From a virus, in IMG/VR virus record IMGVR_UViG_3300049445_000141, positions 1 through 40,589 of that record: a DNA stretch of 40,589 nucleotides; one strand, given 5' to 3'. The position numbers and the translations under genes were made by a program. Of this stretch, positions 1,854 through 31,881 are shown piece by piece. Under the pieces are notes generated by a model. That model ran no database searches and was not told the origin of the DNA. It saw only the letters and a program-made list of their open reading frames with translations. Positions within the stretch are counted from its first letter, which is position 1, and each line of letters opens with the position of its first letter.

Positions 1854-2584
1854 TGCGCCGCGTCGACTTGATCGCAGAGGTCGCGTCGAATCATGGCGGG
1901 GATTTATCGCTCGCGAAAGAGTTCATCTACCGCTACACCGAAGCCGGCGCCGACTGGATCAAATTCCAGATGACGCGCGTGGCGCATCTGCGGCCATCCG
2001 ATCCGCAATTCTCCTGGTTTGAACGCGCCGAACTCTCCGATGATGCGCTCGCGCAGCTCGCGGAGTTGTGTGGACACTGCGGCGTGAAATTCCTCTGCAC
2101 GGTCTACAACGCAGCGAACGTGCCGATGCTCCGGTCCATCTCACCCCATGTGAAAGTGGGCGCGGGTGAAGGCGCTGAAAAGACACTAGCAGAAGCCATC
2201 TTCGCCGCGAACTTTACGACCGTCATCGTCTCCAATCCCGTGCGCGCGCTGTGGATCAAGCCGATGAACAAAGGCTACAAGAAACCGCGTCTACTTCCGC
2301 TCACGACCGTCACGCGCTACCCGACGCCAACGGGCGCTGTGCATCTGGAGCCAGGCACCTTCGGCTGGTCCGATCACTGCGCGGGTATTGCTGGCGCGGC
2401 AGCGGCGATTGCGCTCGGCGCACGCATGATCGAAAAGCATGTGCAGCTCCCCTTCCAGGCTCGTCGCCATGCGCCGTGGGAAGCCACCGTCGAAGAGTTC
2501 CGCGCGCTCCGCGCCTTTGCTGATGAAGACCCTGGTCGCTTCGTCGGCCGCTGGCAGCACGTCTCGCAGGAAGTGCTCGCGTGA
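1853..2584 (+). CDS. neuB: NeuB-like nonulosonic (sialic) acid synthase, barrel domain only
   Basis: NeuB enzymes condense PEP with N-acetylmannosamine, or a related hexose, to give Neu5Ac or a similar nonulosonic acid. The signatures are visible: EVASNHGGDLSLAK near residue 10, GADWIKFQ near 33, RYPTP near 155, and GWSDHCAGI plus ALGARMIEKH near 171-196, which carry the two histidines expected to bind the metal. At about 243 residues the protein is roughly 100 shorter than typical NeuB. It stops after the TIM barrel and lacks the C-terminal SAF (antifreeze-like) domain that normally supplies a substrate-contacting arginine. GTG at 1850 is an alternative start. Its end overlaps neuC by GTGA. 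The family call is strong; the substrate is uncertain. Confidence 0.85.
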   Translation: MRRVDLIAEVASNHGGDLSLAKEFIYRYTEAGADWIKFQMTRVAHLRPSDPQFSWFERAELSDDALAQLAELCGHCGVKFLCTVYNAANVPMLRSISPHVKVGAGEGAEKTLAEAIFAANFTTVIVSNPVRALWIKPMNKGYKKPRLLPLTTVTRYPTPTGAVHLEPGTFGWSDHCAGIAGAAAAIALGARMIEKHVQLPFQARRHAPWEATVEEFRALRAFADEDPGRFVGRWQHVSQEVLA

Positions 2585-3714
2585 CCGTCTGCGTCGTGAT
2601 TACGGCACGGCCCTCCTACGCACGCGTCAAGAGCGTCATTCAAGCCCTGCACTCGGGCAACATCGACGTGAACATCGTCTGCGCGGGTAGCACGCTACTG
2701 GAGCGGTACGGCCGCGTGATCAATCTCGTTCGCAAAGACTTTCGCGCCAATGTGACCGAGATGTGGACGACCTATGAAGGCGCCACGCGCGAAACCTCCG
2801 CGAAAGAAACCGGCGCGCTCATTGCGGAATGCGCGGCGCACTTTGCGCGGACCCAGCCAGCGGCGGTGGTGGTCGTGGCCGATCGCCATGAAGTCTTAGC
2901 GCCAGCCATCGCGGCCAGTTACCAGAACATCCCGCTGATTCATCTGCAAGGCGGCGAACACACCGGCTCGATTGACGACAAGGTGCGCCATGCGATCACG
3001 CAACTCGCCGATGCGCATTGTGTCGCGACGGAGCACGCGGCTGAGTACGTGAAGCAGATTCGTCCCGACGCGCCCGTGTGGCTCACGGGATGCCCATCCA
3101 TCGACATTGCCGCGCAAATCGACAGCGAGGTGCCGGTCACACTGGATGAACTTGGGGGACACGGCGATCCGATCGACCTCGACCGACCCTTCCTCGTGGT
3201 GATGCAGCATCCCGATACGCGCATCGCGACGAATGGCTTGGATATGCTCGTCACCCTCACGGCCTGTGAGGAGACGAAATATCCCACCATCTGCTTCTGG
3301 CCTGGCGAAGACGCGGACGCCGATGTCGTGTCCAAGCAGATGCGGAGCTTCATGCCCAGCGTGCCGTTTCGCACGGTGCGGAATCTCAAGCCGGAACGCT
3401 TTCTGAAACTGCTCACGCAGGCCGCGTGTCTTGTCGGCAATTCCAGTGTGGGCATCCGTGAGTGCGCGTACCTCGGCGTGCCCGTCGTGAATATCGGCCT
3501 CCGGCAAGAGCACCGCGAGCGCGCGAGCAATGTGATGGATATTCCGACCTTCGACGTACGCGCGATTTGCTACGCGATTCAGCAACAGGCGACACGGACG
3601 CATCCACGCTCGGCGCTCTATGGTCTTCCGGGTGCCGGCGCGAAAGTCGCACACGCCATCATTCAGACGGTCCTCGTGAATAAACTGGTACCGTACACGT
3701 CTGGCGTCGCATGA
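2581..3714 (+). CDS. neuC: NeuC/WecB-family UDP-N-acetylglucosamine 2-epimerase
   Basis: This 377-residue protein has the usual length and motifs of UDP-GlcNAc 2-epimerases. It starts TVCVVITARPSYARVKSVI, has VADRHEVLAPAI near residue 98, the family hallmark GGEHTGSIDDKVRHAIT at 124-140, and a C-terminal NSSVGIRECAYLGVPVVNIG followed by RQEHRERASNV. The hydrolysing NeuC branch releases ManNAc for NeuB, and the gene order supports that over the WecB branch. The start is GTG, overlapping the neuB stop, with AGGAAG a few bases upstream. Codon use is dominated by GCG and CGC, like neuB. Confidence 0.85.
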   Translation: MTVCVVITARPSYARVKSVIQALHSGNIDVNIVCAGSTLLERYGRVINLVRKDFRANVTEMWTTYEGATRETSAKETGALIAECAAHFARTQPAAVVVVADRHEVLAPAIAASYQNIPLIHLQGGEHTGSIDDKVRHAITQLADAHCVATEHAAEYVKQIRPDAPVWLTGCPSIDIAAQIDSEVPVTLDELGGHGDPIDLDRPFLVVMQHPDTRIATNGLDMLVTLTACEETKYPTICFWPGEDADADVVSKQMRSFMPSVPFRTVRNLKPERFLKLLTQAACLVGNSSVGIRECAYLGVPVVNIGLRQEHRERASNVMDIPTFDVRAICYAIQQQATRTHPRSALYGLPGAGAKVAHAIIQTVLVNKLVPYTSGVA

Positions 3715-4406
3715 GTGACGTCCTCGCAATTATCCCAGCGCGTGTAGGATCGAAGGGCATTCCGAATAAGAATTTCAGAATGCTCTCTGGCGAAAGCCCT
3801 GTGAAGCGAGCCGCGCAGTGTGTACTAGCAGCTGGTATCACGAGAGCCTTTATCACCACGGACCATCCGACGTTCCTAGGTATTGTGAGGGACACGCTCA
3901 ATACACCATCTCTGCAACGTCCGGAAGCACTCGCGAAAGATGACACGCCGATGATCGACGTAGTGCGTGATGTCCTAGCGCGCATTCCCGGTCCTGATGA
4001 TCAGATCATCCTGCTCGTGCAACCGACACAGCCCTTGCGAGAACCGAAGCATCTCAAGGACGCCATTCGGCTGATGGAGAATCCACATACGATGTCTGTC
4101 GTCAGCGTCGTGGATACAGAATCTCCAGAGCGCATGATGTATATCGACTCCACCGGACACCTCACGTCGTGGGATGATCACGGAGTACGCGAACGACGTC
4201 AATCAGCAGCACCAGGATGTCGGCGCGATGGAACGGTCTACGGATTCAGACGCAGAAATGCAGGACTGACAAGAGAACCGTGGTACCTCTATCCATGCGT
4301 TCCACTCATAGTTCCGAAAAGCGAAACCTGCGAACTCGATACGCCTGACGATTGGGCCATCGCAGAAATCCGCCTCGCGGCTAAAGAGGCGTTGCTTCGT
4401 GCATGA
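3711..4406 (+). CDS. neuA: NeuA-like CMP-nonulosonic acid cytidylyltransferase
   Basis: NeuA uses CTP to activate sialic-type acids as CMP sugars. The signature IPARVGSKGIPNKNF is at residues 8-22. FITTDHP near 46, QIILLVQPTQPLREP near 98, and a terminal ELDTPDDWAIAEI all fit the family. At 231 residues it has normal length. It starts within the neuC stop (ATGA), and its own end overlaps the terminase start, so the cassette is welded to the packaging operon. It uses noticeably more AGA, CTA and GTA codons than neuB and neuC, which suggests a different origin. Substrate identity (Neu5Ac, legionaminate or other) is not readable from sequence. Confidence 0.87.
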   Translation: MSDVLAIIPARVGSKGIPNKNFRMLSGESPVKRAAQCVLAAGITRAFITTDHPTFLGIVRDTLNTPSLQRPEALAKDDTPMIDVVRDVLARIPGPDDQIILLVQPTQPLREPKHLKDAIRLMENPHTMSVVSVVDTESPERMMYIDSTGHLTSWDDHGVRERRQSAAPGCRRDGTVYGFRRRNAGLTREPWYLYPCVPLIVPKSETCELDTPDDWAIAEIRLAAKEALLRA

Positions 4407-6069
4407 TGCTCCGCGACGGTCTCGCCGTGCTCCTGCTCCTGCTGTGGATCTACGCGCGCACTCGCCTCAAGTAAAGTTCACTCCTCCCAAGGGCACGCAC
4501 GTCTGGCCTGCTGTCGGCAACTGGACCGAACTCCACTGGCGCCGTTGGCTCTCTGGACACAAGTGGACGCACGCGCAGATCACGCGGTATCTCAAACATG
4601 ACCGCTACGCGTATGGTGTCGGCTTCAATCCTGATGGCACGCTGGCGACTGTGGCGAGTGCTCACGAAGCCAAGTGGTTGTATCAGCCGACGCCGAAGGG
4701 CGTCACGCTGCATGCCACGCAAACGCCGAATATCCTCTGGGGCGGGTCAGCAGGAGGATCGAAATCGTTTGGTCTCCGCTGGGAAGCCCTCCGCTGCTCG
4801 CTCATGTACGAGGACTTCCGCACACTGATCGTCCGACGCGAACTCGAAGAACTGCGCCGCACCCATCTCGACAAGTTAGAACGCGAGGTGCAGAACATCA
4901 ACCTCGCGGCCGGTCGGAAGATCATGTCGCTCGGCAAACAGCCGCCAGCCCTGATCTGCGAACTGACCGGCTCCAAAATCATCTTCGGGCACGTCAACTC
5001 AATGGGCGACGAGGAACGGTACCTCTCGGAAGAATACGACCTCTTCGGTGGAGACGAAGCGACACGCCTGCTCAAGAATCAGATCGTGGGCATCGCGGGA
5101 CGGCTCCGCAACGATGAGAAGCGTCTGCATCGCATCTCGCGCATGATTCTCACGACGAACCCTGGTGGACCGTCGCACAAGTTCTGCGTGTCGCACTTCA
5201 TCGAGAAGGACGTCCAGCCAGCCGAGAACCCGCGCTACGATCCGAACGACTACACGTTCATCAAAGCGAGTTTGTACGACAATCCGTACCTGATGGATGC
5301 CGATGGTACCTACACCAACTACGAAAAGCGGCTCTACGCCTACGACGTTGACCGTCGCCGCCAACTCCTCGATGGTGATTGGAGTGCAATTGTCGGGCAG
5401 TTCTTCGGGGAGTTCTCTGAACAAGGTCACGTTAAACTCATTCCAGACCTTCCCGAAGGCTGCAAGCTCGATCGCTGGGTGCGGTGGGGCGACAAAGCGT
5501 ACTGTGCCTTCGCGCTGATCTTCCCGAACGGGCGCGTCTACATCATTGATGAAATGCTCTTTGAACCGAAGCGCGTGGCGACGTCCGTGGCGAACGACAT
5601 CAAGCGGCAGTCGGCGTATCTCCGCGATGAGTTGAAGGCGAAGCTCGGACGGACGATCGGCCACATCGAAATGGAAAAGGGCGCGGGCCTGACCGGCGAA
5701 TCTTATGCGGCGACATTCGCGCGCGCGGGCTTGTCGGTCTGGTGCGACGATACCGATCCGATCCAAGGATGGGGACGTGTGCGACACTGGTTGCAGATGG
5801 CGCCAGACGGCTCCCCATGGTTGCTGATTCATCCCAGATGTCAGTTTGCGATTCGCACACTAGCGTCGTTGGTCGAAGACAAGGACAACCCCGAAGACAT
5901 CGACGCCGGTCAAGAGGATCAAGCGGCCCACGCTGTCAGACTTGGGCTGATGGCGCGCCCCAGCCCTCGGACCTTGAAACCGGCGTCGGTGACGATTCCG
6001 AAAGACTCTCCGCGTGCGCTGATGAATGAGTGGTTGACGCCGCGCCGTGAATCAGGAATGGTGATGTAG
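4399..6069 (+). CDS. terL: Terminase large subunit (packaging ATPase-nuclease)
   Basis: TerL pumps DNA into the prohead and cuts the concatemer. The ATPase domain shows a Walker A variant WGGSAGGSKSFG at 114-125, a Walker B-like DLFGGDEA at 214-221, and the coupling motif ILTTNPGGPSHKF at 250-262. The C-terminal RNase H-like nuclease follows from about 360 (RWVRWGDKAYCAF, then NGRVYIIDEML, and later EDQAAHAVRLGLM). The length of 556 is normal. The start is uncertain: GTG 4399 has AGAGG about nine bases upstream and overlaps neuA by eight bases, and GTG 4444 is an in-frame alternative. No separate small terminase is evident upstream. Confidence 0.92.
   Translation: MHDAPRRSRRAPAPAVDLRAHSPQVKFTPPKGTHVWPAVGNWTELHWRRWLSGHKWTHAQITRYLKHDRYAYGVGFNPDGTLATVASAHEAKWLYQPTPKGVTLHATQTPNILWGGSAGGSKSFGLRWEALRCSLMYEDFRTLIVRRELEELRRTHLDKLEREVQNINLAAGRKIMSLGKQPPALICELTGSKIIFGHVNSMGDEERYLSEEYDLFGGDEATRLLKNQIVGIAGRLRNDEKRLHRISRMILTTNPGGPSHKFCVSHFIEKDVQPAENPRYDPNDYTFIKASLYDNPYLMDADGTYTNYEKRLYAYDVDRRRQLLDGDWSAIVGQFFGEFSEQGHVKLIPDLPEGCKLDRWVRWGDKAYCAFALIFPNGRVYIIDEMLFEPKRVATSVANDIKRQSAYLRDELKAKLGRTIGHIEMEKGAGLTGESYAATFARAGLSVWCDDTDPIQGWGRVRHWLQMAPDGSPWLLIHPRCQFAIRTLASLVEDKDNPEDIDAGQEDQAAHAVRLGLMARPSPRTLKPASVTIPKDSPRALMNEWLTPRRESGMVM
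4403..4474 (+). CDS. Possible 23-aa single-span membrane peptide overlapping the terminase start
   Basis: An ATG overlapping the neuA stop (ATGA) opens a 23-residue frame, MMLRDGLAVLLLLLWIYARTRLK, ending with TAA at 4472. It reads as one hydrophobic helix with positive charges on both ends. It is embedded out of frame within the first 75 bases of the terminase gene. The overlap geometry is the same as in the rest of the operon, but an open frame this short can arise by chance. Confidence 0.25.
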   Translation: MMLRDGLAVLLLLLWIYARTRLK

Positions 6070-10265: not shown

Positions 10266-11243
10266 ATGTCCATTCCCGGCCCCAACAAGGGTCAGGTGGT
10301 GGCGAGCGCGTGGGAGGATTACGTCAAGCAAGATCCAGCCGACAACATTTTCAATTACTTCTGGTTGCTGGAAAACTTGCGCGTCGGTGACACCTTCAAA
10401 AAGGGCGCTGGCGATCCGATCACGGGCACCATCGAATACCAGACCAACACGACCACCAAGTCGATGTCGGAACTGGAAACCCTCGACGTCTCGCGTATCG
10501 ACGTGTTCGATCGCTACGAGTACGCGTGGAAGCTGGTCGGCGGCTTGATCGTCATGTCCGACTTCGAGCGCGGACAGACGGCCGGCGCCGCAGGGAAGTT
10601 TGATCTGGAAGCGGGCAAGATGGAGAACCTCAAGAACTCCATGATGTCCCAGATCAATACCGACCTCTTCTCGGACGGCACCGGCACGAGCAGCAAGCAG
10701 GCGGGCGGGTTGCAGTACATCGTGTCCTCGACGCCGACGACCGGCACCGTGGGTGCGATCAACCGCGTCAACTTCTCGTTCTGGCGCAATCAGCAGTCCT
10801 CGGGCGCGAAGTCCTCGACCATCTACGACAACCTCAAGGCGACCATGCGAACGGTGTACAACAACTGTTCGTCCGGCGTCTCGATGCAGACGCCGGATTT
10901 CGGCGTGACCGATCAGACGACGTTTGAAGGGTACGAGTCCCTGAGCGTCACCGTGGAGCGGCTGAACCGTACGTCCACCTCGGACAAGTTGCTCAGCGGC
11001 TACCAGGGTGATCACATCATGTTCAAGGACATCCCGATTGCGTACGATCGGGCCGCACCGTCGGCGCTCATGTACATCCTCAACCGGCGCAATCTCTTCA
11101 TCCGATGGATGTACTGGATGAAGGCGTCACCGGCCGTCAACCCCGCGAACCAGTTTGCCGACGTCGTGAAGATCCTCACGGTCTACAATCTGGTCTCGGA
11201 TAACCCGCGCCGCCTTGGCGTGATCACCTCAACGCAGAGCTAA
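10266..11243 (+). CDS. Major capsid protein
   Basis: The 325-residue product follows the scaffold and has an excellent ribosome-binding site (TAGGAG before CCTCCATG). The sequence resembles HK97-fold capsid proteins of this phage type: long E-loop region (TGTIEYQTNTTTKSMSELET), helical spine (EAGKMENLKNSMMSQINTDLF), and a terminal region rich in beta structure (DIPIAYDRAAPSALMYILNR). It would form the icosahedral shell. Position and size, rather than any single motif, carry the call. Confidence 0.82.
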   Translation: MSIPGPNKGQVVASAWEDYVKQDPADNIFNYFWLLENLRVGDTFKKGAGDPITGTIEYQTNTTTKSMSELETLDVSRIDVFDRYEYAWKLVGGLIVMSDFERGQTAGAAGKFDLEAGKMENLKNSMMSQINTDLFSDGTGTSSKQAGGLQYIVSSTPTTGTVGAINRVNFSFWRNQQSSGAKSSTIYDNLKATMRTVYNNCSSGVSMQTPDFGVTDQTTFEGYESLSVTVERLNRTSTSDKLLSGYQGDHIMFKDIPIAYDRAAPSALMYILNRRNLFIRWMYWMKASPAVNPANQFADVVKILTVYNLVSDNPRRLGVITSTQS

Positions 11244-11259: not shown

Positions 11260-11823
11260 ATGGCTGTCATTTCAGGACGCGGAGGCGCCGCCATTCCTGG
11301 CGAAACCTCGGAACTGTTCTCGTCGGTGTTTCTCCCGCTCGGCACGCGGGCGACGGACGTCAATGGCAACGAATACATCTTCGTTGACTTCGGCGCCGCG
11401 CCTTCGGCCACTGGCTTCGTGTACGGATCGTGGGTGCAGTTCGACCATAACTTCTTGGCGACCATCCTCACGACCACGGCACGCGGCTGGGTCGGCATCG
11501 TCACGTCCGGTTCGGCCGGACAGACGGTCTCGGCCACCTTGCGCTACGGATGGGTTCAGATTTACGGAATCCACACGGGCGCGCTCGGCACGTCTGGTGT
11601 CACCACGGCCGATGGCTTGATCGCGGTCGTGACGACGGACGTGGGCTACGTGGACAAATCGACGTCCACGGAAACCAGCAACTTCGCGTTGTTCAATGCC
11701 CTCGCGAGGACGGCTCCGAATACGTGCGCGAGTACGGCCACTGGCACCTCGGCCTTGGTCGCGCCGTTCACGGCCCAGCTCAATTACCCGTTCATGGCGG
11801 GCTGGTTCGGCTCCACATCGTAG
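11260..11823 (+). CDS. Capsid-associated (decoration-like) protein
   Basis: It starts 16 bases after the capsid stop with AAGGAGG in between. The 187-residue product is rich in Gly, Thr, Ser and beta-strand patterns and has few charged residues (GRGGAAIPGETSELFSSVF, YIFVDFGAAPSATGF). Small beta-rich proteins directly after the capsid gene usually decorate or stabilise the head. No sequence motif proves this. Confidence 0.5.
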   Translation: MAVISGRGGAAIPGETSELFSSVFLPLGTRATDVNGNEYIFVDFGAAPSATGFVYGSWVQFDHNFLATILTTTARGWVGIVTSGSAGQTVSATLRYGWVQIYGIHTGALGTSGVTTADGLIAVVTTDVGYVDKSTSTETSNFALFNALARTAPNTCASTATGTSALVAPFTAQLNYPFMAGWFGSTS

Positions 11824-11842
11824 GTCGTTAAGGGAGGTTGGC

Positions 11843-12730
11843 GTGAGTCGAACGGACGGACAGGATCGTTCCAATAGCATCACCCCGTTGGGACATCTGC
11901 GTCCAGGTCAGCCGATCACGCCAGCCATCCTTGCCGCGCATGGCGACCGGATCTACGAACCTCCGCCGATCCTGCCGCATCGGCAGCTCGGCATCGGTCT
12001 GCAACGTAAGATTGCGATTCTCGGCTCCGCGCCCACGCTGGATCAGACCCCGTGGTTTGATCCCTCATGGGAAATCTGGTCGCACGCGACCATTCATACC
12101 CTCTGCCGACGTGTGGACCGCTATTTCGACCTCCATCCGTGGTCATGGATTGAGTCGAAGGGCAGTCCCGGCTATCTCAGTTGGATGAAGCGCGAAAAGG
12201 CGCCGATCTTTCTCGCAGAACTGCGACAGGAAGTGCCGTCATCGGTGCGCTATCCGCTGGATCGGATTCTCTCCGAGTTTCCACGCTACTTCACGTCCCA
12301 CACGGCGTACATGGTCGCCTTGGCGCTGACGGAAGGCGTGTCGCATCTCGGATTCTTCGGGATTCACTATCAACTCGGCTCAGAATACGAAGAACAGCGC
12401 GCGGGCGCGGAGTTTTGGGCGGGCATCGCAGCAGGACGTGGCGTACAACTGGTCATTCCTCCGACGTCGCCGTTCTGCCACGAACCAAAGGAACTCTACG
12501 CCTACGAATCGCACGCGGCAGGCGAGCCGGCGACGAAGCGTAAGGCGCGCAAGCAGTTTGACCGCGTGGATGCCAAAATCGACGGCCTCCATCTCAGAAT
12601 CGGTCTGACACCGGAAGAGTCTGAGCGTACCGCGCATCCGGGTGTCGAAATGGCGAAAGACCTCGTGAACATGCGCCGCATGATCGAAGGCAAGCCCGCG
12701 ATGCTGCCCAACGGTCAACCGGCCTGGTAA
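11843..12730 (+). CDS. Phage protein with GT42 (sialyltransferase)-like motif order
   Basis: GTG at 11843 has AGGGAGG six bases upstream, giving 295 residues. An N-terminal nucleotide-sugar-type strand-loop KIAILGSAPTLDQ lies near 56, DRYFDLHPW near 92, then YFTSHTAYMVALALTEGV near 149 and LGFFGIHYQLGSEYEEQRAG near 169, ending in VQLVIPPTSP. Related proteins occur in many phages without a proven role. The order GxGPS, TSxxYMxAxALxxG, SGIDFY is that of GT42 sialyltransferases (Cst-II type) and related DUF115-like folds. Here the usual Asp of GID is His. With neuBCA upstream, a transferase using the CMP sugar is a testable inference, not a demonstrated function. Confidence 0.5.
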   Translation: MSRTDGQDRSNSITPLGHLRPGQPITPAILAAHGDRIYEPPPILPHRQLGIGLQRKIAILGSAPTLDQTPWFDPSWEIWSHATIHTLCRRVDRYFDLHPWSWIESKGSPGYLSWMKREKAPIFLAELRQEVPSSVRYPLDRILSEFPRYFTSHTAYMVALALTEGVSHLGFFGIHYQLGSEYEEQRAGAEFWAGIAAGRGVQLVIPPTSPFCHEPKELYAYESHAAGEPATKRKARKQFDRVDAKIDGLHLRIGLTPEESERTAHPGVEMAKDLVNMRRMIEGKPAMLPNGQPAW

Positions 12731-13379: not shown

Positions 13380-13667
13380 ATGGCAACAACCTGTACATTC
13401 AAATGCTTTCGCCGGAAGGCGGGCAGGGGACACGGATTGCTCCTCACGGAAATCAGTGGCACCATCAGTTTGGCTGATGTGACCGTGGCCGTCGCGCCGC
13501 AAGTCTCTGGAGGCGCCGCGACCATGACCACCGCGACCGTGACGGCCGACGTGCAGAACATGATTTACGTGGACAGCACGGCAGCGACGACGGCCGGCAT
13601 TGACCCAGGGTCCTACACGAAAATCTCAGCGGCGACCTATCGCAAACATCGCGCGCTGGATGTATGA
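13380..13667 (+). CDS. Hypothetical small protein (95 aa)
   Basis: Starts with TAGGAGAACCGATGG, a good ribosome-binding site. The product is Thr/Ala/Val-rich and likely beta-structured, with a basic N-terminus (KCFRRKAGRGHG). Its stop overlaps the start of the YkgJ-like gene by ATGA. Probably a minor virion component by context. Confidence 0.5.
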   Translation: MATTCTFKCFRRKAGRGHGLLLTEISGTISLADVTVAVAPQVSGGAATMTTATVTADVQNMIYVDSTAATTAGIDPGSYTKISAATYRKHRALDV

Positions 13668-14116
13668 CGAGTCTCCCTGTCGTGCAGGATCGGCCGATCG
13701 CGGCACGCTGGCGCTGTCAGCAGTCGGGTGACTGTTGTACGCAGCCAGCCGACGTCGTGATGACCACGATGGAAGCCGCCGAACTCCTGCGCGCGAAGGA
13801 CCCTGACGTGGTCCTGAACTTCACGAAGATGGACGAGTCGTTCGTCTCGCTGAAGGCGGGTCCCTGTCCACTCTATGACGCGCGGTATCAGACGTGTACG
13901 GTCTATGAGGTGCGGCCCTACAACTGCCGCCGCTTCGGCTGTATGCGACCCGATCCGAAGACAGAGCCGTGGGAATCCACGTCTACAGGCGAGTGCGCGA
14001 ATCGCGAGGACCGCATCACCATCTCTCGGAGCGTCAGACGCACTGCGCGAGACATGCAGGAGACCGCGAAAGTGTGGGCACGCGCACACGGATGGAGGCC
14101 AGATGGCGTCTCGTGA
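13664..14116 (+). CDS. YkgJ-family Cys-cluster (zinc/iron-chelating) protein
   Basis: The 150-residue product has the family signature: RCQQSGDCCTQPADVVMT near residue 17, GPCPLYDARYQTCTVYEVRP near 66 and YNCRRFGCM just after. YkgJ-type proteins bind metal through these cysteines; many are coupled to radical or oxidative chemistry, but the family has no single known reaction. It starts with ATGA inside the previous stop and its end overlaps the next gene by 14 bases. A possible 2OG-Fe(II) oxygenase is encoded 2.6 kb downstream on the same strand. Confidence 0.75.
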   Translation: MTSLPVVQDRPIAARWRCQQSGDCCTQPADVVMTTMEAAELLRAKDPDVVLNFTKMDESFVSLKAGPCPLYDARYQTCTVYEVRPYNCRRFGCMRPDPKTEPWESTSTGECANREDRITISRSVRRTARDMQETAKVWARAHGWRPDGVS

Positions 14117-16296: not shown

Positions 16297-16752
16297 ATGC
16301 CGAGTTTCCAGATTTTCACCAACGCGACGAACACGGCCAGCACAACCGTCCCGATGTTCAACTTGATGGGCACGGCGACGAGCCAGATCGGCATCTTCGA
16401 GATCAATGCCGGGTCCGACGCCTCGGCCGACAACTCCGTAAAGTATTCCATCGCTCGTACGTCAGCCCGTCAGACGCAGACGGCGACCGTGACGCCGACG
16501 GCCCTCGACCAGAACGTCACCCAGGCCGCGCTGACGACCTGTGACACGACCTGGAACGTGGCGCCGACCATCACGGCCTCGTCGGCCGTGCTTCAGTGGG
16601 GCATGCACCAACGCGCCACGTACCGCTGGGTCGCGTACGACTACACGAAGTTCCTGCGGTCGCAGGCGGGCACCGGCAAGGGACTGTGCATGTTGTCGGT
16701 CGTCGCGTCGACGCCCTTCAACGGCGTGTTCTCATGCAGTTTTGATGAATGA
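16297..16752 (+). CDS. Probable minor structural protein (151 aa)
   Basis: The product starts MPSFQIFTNATNTASTTVPM, is Thr/Ala/Ser-rich with beta-strand periodicity, and ends NGVFSCSFDE. Proteins of this style are frequent in phage tail-fibre regions. It ends in an 8-base overlap with the oxygenase-like gene, implying coupled translation. Confidence 0.6.
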   Translation: MPSFQIFTNATNTASTTVPMFNLMGTATSQIGIFEINAGSDASADNSVKYSIARTSARQTQTATVTPTALDQNVTQAALTTCDTTWNVAPTITASSAVLQWGMHQRATYRWVAYDYTKFLRSQAGTGKGLCMLSVVASTPFNGVFSCSFDE

Positions 16753-17143
16753 GACGCTCCGCGTGCTGGGGCAGTATCAACCGTCCGAGTGGAATCGCGA
16801 TGTGATCGAGCAGGAGGTCAGGCGACTCGGCTGTCTTCCCGCATGCTGCCGCCAGCAACGGATGGAGATACGCGGGCCGTCTCCTCATGCGCCAGCGACC
16901 ACACATCTCTGGCATCGCGATTCTGATACGGATGTTCCTGACGCACCAGGACGTCTGACGCATCTCGTCATGTGGGCCAGTGAAGACCCAACGGAATTTG
17001 TGAACGAGACCGGCATGATTCAGTCGTTCGAGCCGTACGACCTCGTGTGGATGGATAACGTCGCATGGTGGCATCGTTCACCGCCAGCGGCGAATCATCT
17101 AACGCGCTGGTTTATCGGGATACGGTGTAACGGATGCACCTGA
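16745..17143 (+). CDS. Putative 2OG-Fe(II) dioxygenase-like protein
   Basis: ATG at 16745 overlaps the previous stop; 132 residues. The layout matches the double-stranded beta-helix Fe(II)/2-oxoglutarate oxygenases: His57-x-Asp59 in HLWHRDSD, a strand LTHLVMWASEDPTEF, FEPYDLVWMDN, the distal His110 in WWHRSPP, and Arg121 in LTRWFIGIR as the 2OG-binding candidate. Such enzymes hydroxylate proteins, nucleic acids or small molecules. It is short for the family. Codons include more AGA and CGA than the neighbours, a hint of transfer. The fold is moderately sure; the substrate is unknown. Confidence 0.6.
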   Translation: MNETLRVLGQYQPSEWNRDVIEQEVRRLGCLPACCRQQRMEIRGPSPHAPATTHLWHRDSDTDVPDAPGRLTHLVMWASEDPTEFVNETGMIQSFEPYDLVWMDNVAWWHRSPPAANHLTRWFIGIRCNGCT

Positions 17144-30388: not shown

Positions 30389-30733
30389 ATGGGACAACTG
30401 ATTGCGTTTTGCTCGGCGCCATTCGGCCGTATTGGTAGCGATGATTTCCGGCAGATCGGGATACTGACCACCCAGCCGAATGGCTATTCCACGGTGACGT
30501 GGGGACCAACGGCCGGCAACGGGACCGTGCCTCAGAATCCAGGGACGATTCTGGGGCTGAGTCCTGATGGCAGTTATTCGGCAGGACCAGCCAATGCGAT
30601 CGGGAACGGGCAACAGTTCAAGCTGGTGGACGGCTGTCTCGTCATCCGGCCGAATATCAGCATCAACGACGGCTCGGTGTTGATCCCTGGGGCGCCCACG
30701 ATCGCCTACGTCATCGCGGCACGGGCACTGTGA
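30389..30733 (+). CDS. Hypothetical Gly-rich protein (114 aa)
   Basis: The product has few charges and alternating Gly/Ser/Thr (GQLIAFCSAPFGRIGSDDFR, TILGLSPDGSYSAGPANAIG), suggestive of a beta-rich virion or accessory protein. It ends in a GTGA overlap with the glycoside hydrolase-like gene, so the two are translationally linked. Function not recognised. Confidence 0.5.
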   Translation: MGQLIAFCSAPFGRIGSDDFRQIGILTTQPNGYSTVTWGPTAGNGTVPQNPGTILGLSPDGSYSAGPANAIGNGQQFKLVDGCLVIRPNISINDGSVLIPGAPTIAYVIAARAL

Positions 30734-31881
30734 GTAGTCTGCTCCTGCTCTCGTCGTCAAGCGGCGGCGGTGGGGCTGGGGAGACAGGCCACATCCACAT
30801 CGACGGATTGGTCTTTCGCGATGAGGCTGGCGCCATCTGGCCGTGGCGCGGCTTCACCGCGTTTACGCTGTACCTCATCTGGTTGGATCAGGGCGCGGCT
30901 GGCGTGGATGCCGTGGTGTCTGGCTGGCTCTCTGCGTGTGGGCCAGTGAAGCCGAACGTGCTCAGGGTCCTTGGGATGGTCGATTCCTTCGCCCACCTCT
31001 GGCCGCAGGAGCATCCCGACTACTACGACCAACTGCAACCCTTCGCGCGGCATCTGTGGTCACGCTTCGCGATCCGTATCGAGTTCGTCATCTTCGCGGA
31101 CAGCGGCATCATCATGTCGGATCTACGGGAGCAGGACGCACACGCCTTCCAAGTCACCCGCGCACTCGAAGCCGAACCGAACGTGTTCTTCGAGATTGCC
31201 AACGAACCGTCTCAGCATGAGAACTTCCCAGGCGGTGACGAGCGCGCGTACGACATGTACCTCTGGCTGAGCCTGCCGTCATTGATGATTGCGACTGGCG
31301 CTGGTGATGGCACCAACCACGGCGACTATACGACGCCCCACACGCCTCGGGACGACCAGTGGCCCAGGAAGGCGAAAGACCTTCTCGACGTCAGGGACAT
31401 CTCGCATGTGCCATCTGTCGGAGACGAACCGATGGGCGCCGCTGAAGTCTTCATCGACGGGAAGCGCGATACGAATCCACGCAACTTCGCGGACTACGCG
31501 GCGACGGCGCAGTTAGAGGGAGCAGGGTCCACGTTCCATTCCGACGCCGGCATCAATGGCACGCCGATGGGTCCGGTGACGGCCTCGTGCGCGCAGGCAT
31601 TCTTCGCGGCGGCAGCCTGGGTGCCTCCACAGTGCCAGATTGAACCGTTCATGCGCGGGCAGATCAACACGCCGTGTACGTGGACGCATGCGCCTGGTGA
31701 TGTGCCGGGGCCATGCCAGCATGATGACGCGATCGAGATACGGAGCTACGGCAAGATCATCGAACCGCAGTGCTGGGTGACACAGGTGCAGACGCAGCGA
31801 GCGGCGCCGACGCCCTGCCCTGGATGGGTCGTAGACGCGCCTGGGCCGTCGCAGGGCCTCACGGTTTTTCGTCGGGCCTAG
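30730..31881 (+). CDS. Clan-A (GH5/cellulase-like) glycoside hydrolase-like protein
   Basis: GTG start overlaps the previous stop; 383 residues. After a short Ser/Gly-rich leader, the chain follows a TIM-barrel hydrolase plan: GLVFRDEAGAIWPWRGFTAF near 26, PNVLRVLGMVD near 75, IRIEFVIFAD near 115, and FFEIANEPSQ near 153 with Glu159 as the clan-A acid/base. Glu233 in SVGDEPMGAAE is the candidate nucleophile. Phages use such enzymes as virion depolymerases or surface-glycan hydrolases. There is no signal peptide. It could also be catalytically altered and serve for binding only. Confidence 0.65.
   Translation: MSSLLLLSSSSGGGGAGETGHIHIDGLVFRDEAGAIWPWRGFTAFTLYLIWLDQGAAGVDAVVSGWLSACGPVKPNVLRVLGMVDSFAHLWPQEHPDYYDQLQPFARHLWSRFAIRIEFVIFADSGIIMSDLREQDAHAFQVTRALEAEPNVFFEIANEPSQHENFPGGDERAYDMYLWLSLPSLMIATGAGDGTNHGDYTTPHTPRDDQWPRKAKDLLDVRDISHVPSVGDEPMGAAEVFIDGKRDTNPRNFADYAATAQLEGAGSTFHSDAGINGTPMGPVTASCAQAFFAAAAWVPPQCQIEPFMRGQINTPCTWTHAPGDVPGPCQHDDAIEIRSYGKIIEPQCWVTQVQTQRAAPTPCPGWVVDAPGPSQGLTVFRRA

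Follow-up and report, generated by a model that had tools for sequence, protein, structure and literature searches.

The 40,589-base DNA of IMG/VR virus record IMGVR_UViG_3300049445_000141 (hereafter the window, meaning the whole stretch analysed; G+C 60%) carries, at positions 11843–12730 on the plus strand, an open reading frame (ORF) for a putative GT42-like CMP-nonulosonic-acid transferase of 295 amino acids (aa). Our reading is that this enzyme is fed by the NeuB, NeuC and NeuA proteins encoded by the same phage and O-glycosylates the head protein encoded just upstream, and we give this reading a probability of about one half. Taken singly, the assignment of the product as a CMP-nonulosonate transferase is probable, and that of the upstream head protein as its acceptor is held at slightly less than even odds. 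The argument draws on an open frame with relatives in IMG/VR, a predicted core fold, linkage of the gene to neuA, and a pairing of the gene with one form of the upstream protein.

The frame begins with GTG, and a strong Shine–Dalgarno sequence, AGGGAGG, lies directly upstream of it (AAGGGAGG with the start codon, 11830–11845, plus strand), with one match in the window and none in shuffled sequences; an alternative, longer frame from an ATG at 11696 runs into the preceding gene. The motifs that an earlier note on this DNA had read as the GT42-type order are all present (G61-S-A-P-T65, TSHTAYMVALAL from residue 151, FFGIHY from 171 and LVIPP from 203) and sit at conserved positions in 96 related ORFs. 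The gene is the second downstream of the major capsid gene, and its product has no PHROG, Pfam or NCBIfam assignment, with a sub-threshold DUF7256 match confined to the C-terminus.

To model the protein with AlphaFold2, we used an alignment of 62 sequences comprising the window and related loci, leaving out L001, whose sequence equals that of the window, as well as two disrupted frames, near-duplicates above 88% and the Microcystis phage row. The mean predicted local distance difference test score (pLDDT) was 77.3. A confident Rossmann-like core is predicted for residues 51–215 (11993–12487, plus strand), with block means of 84–98 over residues 51–210 and 79 over 211–220, and poor values in residues 1–50 and beyond 220. 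In a Foldseek search of the PDB, ranks 1–7 of 1,151 matches were all Cst-II (E 1.8e-4 to 5e-3, two of them below 0.001), followed by SteA. VIA-align 2, with 1000 candidates and an aligned range of residues 54–213, was led by nine GT42 entries from Cst-I, Cst-II and a Pasteurella sialyltransferase (Z 10.4–11.3 over 145–158 residues, root-mean-square deviation 3.2–3.4), while SteA reached 9.6 and mammalian GT29 sialyltransferases 7.0–7.5. A structure search against predicted viral proteins returned unnamed phage proteins together with MptE-like/DUF115 proteins. The model thus places the core in the GT42/MptE group with GT42 as its best match, the outcome that the earlier note had anticipated in proposing a fold comparison with Cst-I/Cst-II and DUF115 proteins.

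The late genes lie on the plus strand and overlap tightly in the order neuB, neuC, neuA, terminase. The neuB-like synthase gene (1850–2584; PF03102, E 1.2e-20) is followed by neuC, encoding a UDP-GlcNAc 2-epimerase that passes its equivalog cut-off (2581–3714; TIGR03568, 268 bits versus 235.9), by a neuA/pseF-like gene for a CMP-nonulosonate cytidylyltransferase (3711–4406; PF02348, E 1.3e-14) and by the terminase gene (4399–6069). NeuB and NeuA both match their own Pfam families, and at the level of family the Pfam and NCBIfam matches bear out the three assignments made from the sequence beforehand.

Linkage between the transferase gene and neuA was followed by searching whole records for 50 of the 81 that carry the transferase family. 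A neuA-like gene was found in 21, neuC in 11, neuB in 17 and all three in 11; judged by sequence, one of the 50 (G001) is the phage of the window itself, two others (G032 and G033) look like a single phage, and the neuA matches of G044, G048, G032 and G033 are weak. Of the 27 among these 50 records that reach 20 kb, 18 had a neuA match, and neuA-like linkage appears in both halves of the transferase family tree. Viewed in reverse, 23 of the best 80 neuA-bearing viral records carry the transferase family at E 0.001, some of them weakly.

As a control for lineage, records were chosen by capsid protein alone, with the major capsid protein of the window as marker (10266–11243, plus strand; phrog_9953, E 5e-40). 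In a first set of 23 records, neuA was present in 5/6 with the transferase gene versus 0/17 without it; the sixth gene-bearing record is a 7.5 kb fragment, and the 17 include records of 40.7, 41.0 and 43.7 kb with capsid identities of 82, 69 and 73%. IMG/VR holds at least 538 records of this capsid lineage, and a larger control set of 80 loci gave neuA in 6/11 with the gene versus 0/69 without it, within the available flanks. All 37 contigs of at least 16 kb among these loci were searched whole, and here neuA accompanied the gene in 5/7 and was found in 0/30 records lacking it, with a Fisher p of 4.8e-5 that is optimistic because the sets overlap and the 30 include identical or near-identical capsid proteins. 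On a capsid tree of 39 proteins (those of the 37 records, the window and L003), the transferase gene changes at least six times and neuA five times, and three to four of four independent pairs on supported branches are concordant, none being opposite. The transferase gene is therefore linked to neuA both inside one capsid lineage and outside it, and the expectation of the earlier note that the family co-occurs with neuA more often than expected was upheld in the lineage-matched comparison.

The gene between the capsid and transferase genes (11260–11823, plus strand) encodes a head-decoration-like virion structural protein, which is our candidate acceptor. The assignment comes from relatives in L003 and L306, which match the PHROG family named 'virion structural protein' (phrog_29386); for the protein of the window no PHROG match was obtained. 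Its model is beta-rich, with a mean pLDDT of 69.6. Where the transferase gene is present, the C-terminus of the head protein is rich in Ser and Thr and closes with an LNYP-like motif, whereas without the gene it has a different C-terminus and frequently an internal insertion. A first count, which also required a second motif and thereby excluded 45 of 126 ORFs, gave the tail in 20/20 with the gene versus 0/20 without it. In an unfiltered count over 82 unique C-termini, with the gene scored as present within 3 kb or as absent where 3 kb or more of sequence was available, the LNYP-like tail was found in 29/31 with the gene, 1/34 without it and 1/17 undecidable cases, in counts that ignore kinship. 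The exceptions are L008 and L228, which have the gene and no motif, and L296, which has LQYP and no gene. Ser and Thr together make up 26.7% of the last 75 residues with the transferase gene versus 15.0% without it. In the window protein, a Ser/Thr-rich segment at residues 152–166 (11713–11757, plus strand) is modelled with pLDDT below 50 and may be flexible. We take the pairing of tail and transferase as a lead to the acceptor, not as proof. The contig of L186, one of the undecidable cases, ends 79 bases past a Ser/Thr-tailed head protein, and on this pattern a transferase gene is predicted just beyond its end.

NeuC converts UDP-GlcNAc to ManNAc or an analogue, NeuB condenses this product with phosphoenolpyruvate, and NeuA activates the resulting sugar with CTP. 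In the mechanism we propose, these proteins of the late gene row would supply a CMP-nonulosonic acid. The GT42-like enzyme would hold this donor at its Rossmann-sheet edge and move the sugar from it onto Ser or Thr, much as Maf does on flagellin. The acceptor would be the flexible C-terminal Ser/Thr stretch of the head protein, and progeny particles would carry sialic-acid-like sugars; in phages with the enzyme and no neuA, the donor may come from the host. Catalysis, a Neu5Ac-like donor, the O-linkage and the identity of the acceptor are what we infer from these patterns. As the catalytic His of Cst-II has no conserved counterpart, the phage enzyme must use a different residue as its base, for which D73, H98 and E181 are the best-conserved candidates in the alignment. 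Other residue equivalences with Cst-II, apart from those at the G-x-D strand, such as H98 with Asn51 and A82 with Asn31, were drawn by eye and were not used as evidence.

A broader version, which we advance more tentatively, is a self-contained virion-sialylation cassette, in which phages make their own CMP-nonulosonic acid and use compact GT42-like transferases to O-glycosylate a Ser/Thr tail on the head surface, with the synthesis genes, the transferase and the acceptor form gained and lost jointly across related phage lineages. If correct, our reading would give a function to a family of unassigned phage proteins and explain why sialic-acid synthesis genes stand in the late gene row of environmental phages. 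Sialic-acid-type sugars on a capsid would alter its surface charge, adhesion and recognition, the trio of donor, enzyme and acceptor would become testable, and a compact protein O-nonulosonate transferase would be a useful enzyme.

Several observations weigh against this reading. At E 0.1, none of the 63 members of the transferase family that were searched has a match to the CST-I (PF06002) or MptE-like (PF01973) Pfam models, and profile–profile comparison with 16 Maf-type PF01973 domains by hhalign gave a probability of 0.6%. The stretch after G-x-D, the base region of Cst-II, is 27 residues shorter than in Cst-II, and no His after residue 175 is conserved across the 96 ORFs, in the region where Cst-II has its catalytic base, His188 (PMC4202792). 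A profile of 63 relatives searched against the PDB did return GT42 sialyltransferases in seven of the nine best rows, at non-significant E of 0.7–1.4; as almost identical versions of Cst-II fill six of these rows, the seven stand for two independent proteins. In a separate scan meant to supply a GT42 profile, PF06002 had no match in 7 genomes and 14 controls. Judged by its sequence, the protein is thus not a GT42 member and is assigned instead to the GT42/MptE-like structural group: the sialyltransferase proposed in the earlier note gains from the predicted fold and the neuA linkage, and membership in GT42 proper is not supported. On the side of the sugar, NeuB falls under its equivalog cut-off (TIGR03569, 92 versus 399.65 bits), as does NeuA, whose best model is PseF (TIGR03584, 88 versus 205.7 bits), which is why the sugar is named here only as a nonulosonic acid. 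On the genomic side, nine family records of at least 20 kb are without neuA (G011, G014, G015, G021, G029, G036, G043, G049 and the Microcystis phage), and the tree-corrected sign test gives p 0.125. The head-protein model has no significant PDB match, its capsid-type rows having E 0.9–3.5, and the head and transferase genes, being adjacent, may simply travel together by hitchhiking.

The fold itself admits another chemistry. MptE, a diphosphokinase (HPPK; PF01973) of the archaeal pterin pathway, resembles the predicted phage core in fold and follows GT42 closely at Z 10.3, tied with the lowest GT42 values, and thiamine pyrophosphokinase stands near at 9.8; in the models, Z alone does not separate GT42 from MptE. 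The crystal structure of Maf, which belongs with MptE in PF01973, did not appear in the VIA-align rows listed. A diphosphokinase-like or other nucleotide-binding enzyme that transfers no sugar would nevertheless leave the neuBCA linkage unexplained, and seven Cst-II chains outrank all other folds in Foldseek, so we regard this as quite improbable. We think it very improbable that the protein is a non-enzymatic head-morphogenesis factor retaining a Rossmann-like fold: its location between head genes would suit such a role, but the polar residues D73, H98 and E181 are conserved in the 62-sequence alignment, tandem copies occur in L003, L024 and L280, and the Microcystis phage copy precedes the terminase genes, distant from the capsid gene.

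Given a nonulosonate transferase, donor and acceptor may each differ from those we propose. Gene-bearing phages in which no neuA was found (G157, 43.7 kb; G014, 38.1 kb; G008, G011, G015, G021 and others) make other donors possible, perhaps host-supplied, and further weigh against our reading, as does the finding of no sugar-nucleotide family among 25 selected proteins of G157 and 21 of G014. The enzyme might then use a host CMP-sugar such as CMP-Kdo, which CbMaf also takes (PMC11339370), or some other nucleotide sugar, with neuBCA acquired independently. Against such independence, neuA without the transferase gene occurs in 0/30 records of the capsid lineage and the two genes change together, which makes a separate donor rather improbable in our view. 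A CMP-nonulosonate transferase might also act late on a host surface glycan, lipopolysaccharide (LPS) or capsule, masking receptors on debris or blocking superinfection. NeuBCA in the window would serve this equally as donor source, and characterised GT42 enzymes modify lipooligosaccharide glycans (PMC4202792); yet the gene stands among head genes and is paired with a specific form of the adjoining virion protein, and late expression would come late for a change of the host surface, so that host-glycan modification seems to us unlikely.

The virion-glycosylation reading has its closest working analogue in Maf (PF01973), whose Cst-II-like Maf_flag10 domain O-sialylates flagellin Ser/Thr from CMP-Neu5Ac and which thus places nonulosonic acids on a self-assembling structural protein (PMC11339370). 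The proposed phage acceptor is a virion protein where that of Maf is flagellin, and Maf has extra domains, PF01973 matches over the cut-off falling mostly in frames of about 420–800 codons in the sequences scanned. With Cst-I and Cst-II (CAZy GT42, PF06002) the phage protein shares the fold of its predicted core, the order of G-x-x-P-[ST] loop, YM helix and G-x-D strand, and a genomic partner in neuA; unlike Cst-II it has 27 fewer residues after G-x-D and 32 fewer before it in the aligned range, and the phage family carries an extra conserved E-Y-x-x-Q-R motif. Phage capsid glycosylation and phage NeuA in an LPS-gene context are already in print. Mycobacteriophages Che8 and Rita bear glycans covalently on capsid proteins with phage-encoded putative glycosyltransferases (PMC11256854, citing Freeman 2023), in passages that mention neither a sialic-acid pathway nor a GT42-like protein. 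For a marine virus, a complete genome has been published in which NeuA stands amid genes for making LPS and capsule (PMC5332604), interpreted there as host LPS/capsule synthesis, with no pairing of a transferase and a head protein mentioned in the passage. Of the open-licence PMC articles that our searches listed, none reported in its title or abstract opening a GT42-like transferase that occurs with neuBCA in a phage, or a phage head protein bearing sialic acid. New here is the link of a compact GT42-like transferase with sialic-acid synthesis genes carried by a phage and with a virion protein, including an acceptor candidate that the earlier note had not foreseen.

Relatives in IMG/VR numbered 3 with a single-sequence query and 214 with a five-sequence alignment query, and the 80 best of these were carried forward. 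The GenBank phage collection holds a relative in 1 of 50,697 records, that of Microcystis phage PP496355 at 33% identity, so the supposition that such proteins are widespread in phages is true of IMG/VR and not of GenBank phages. The Microcystis phage relative (L005, 5911–6714) is annotated as 'type 11 methyltransferase', which is probably a wrong name. Bacterial and archaeal genomes yielded seven relatives (L231–L237), all metagenome-assembled and most named Bacillota, Firmicutes or Clostridia. The strongest columns across the 96 ORFs include G61, P70, D73, W79, H98, P121, P138, G173, E181, Q185, G194, G200, P206 and Y219. Residue 175, the Asp of the GT42 GID motif, is indeed His in the window protein; as a sign of altered chemistry the substitution was rejected, because this residue varies freely (most commonly D58, N15, H9 and E8 in the 96 ORFs, with S and Q also occurring) and His recurs at several places in the family tree. 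The neuBCA-bearing phages themselves have H, N, D or Q there. In the tandem pair of transferase-like genes of L003 (9977–10657 and 10897–11484), one copy has GIHY and the other GCDF.

The phage NeuB proteins are short, with 244 aa in the window and 258 aa in L003 (3070–3846) for a model of 329 positions, and appear to lack the C-terminal domain of cellular NeuB, which we take to be the SAF domain. In L003 a methyltransferase gene (3818–4471) lies between neuB and neuC, and its product perhaps modifies the sugar. Among the 50 window proteins scanned, no glycosyltransferase family was found besides the ORF at 11843–12730, and single Pfam matches were to the podophage fibre-tail adaptor Gp77, PAPS reductase, HNH and GH114. 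The ORF at 16541–17143, with no Pfam match at E 0.01, contains HLWHRDSD and WWHRSPP in its downstream part, presumably reminiscent of a 2-oxoglutarate oxygenase. The protein encoded at 30730–31881, with no Pfam match at E 1, contains FFEIANEPS, which we take to resemble clan-A glycoside hydrolases. The head-gene region also encodes, at 13664–14116, a protein with a CxxCxxCC zinc- or iron-chelating domain.
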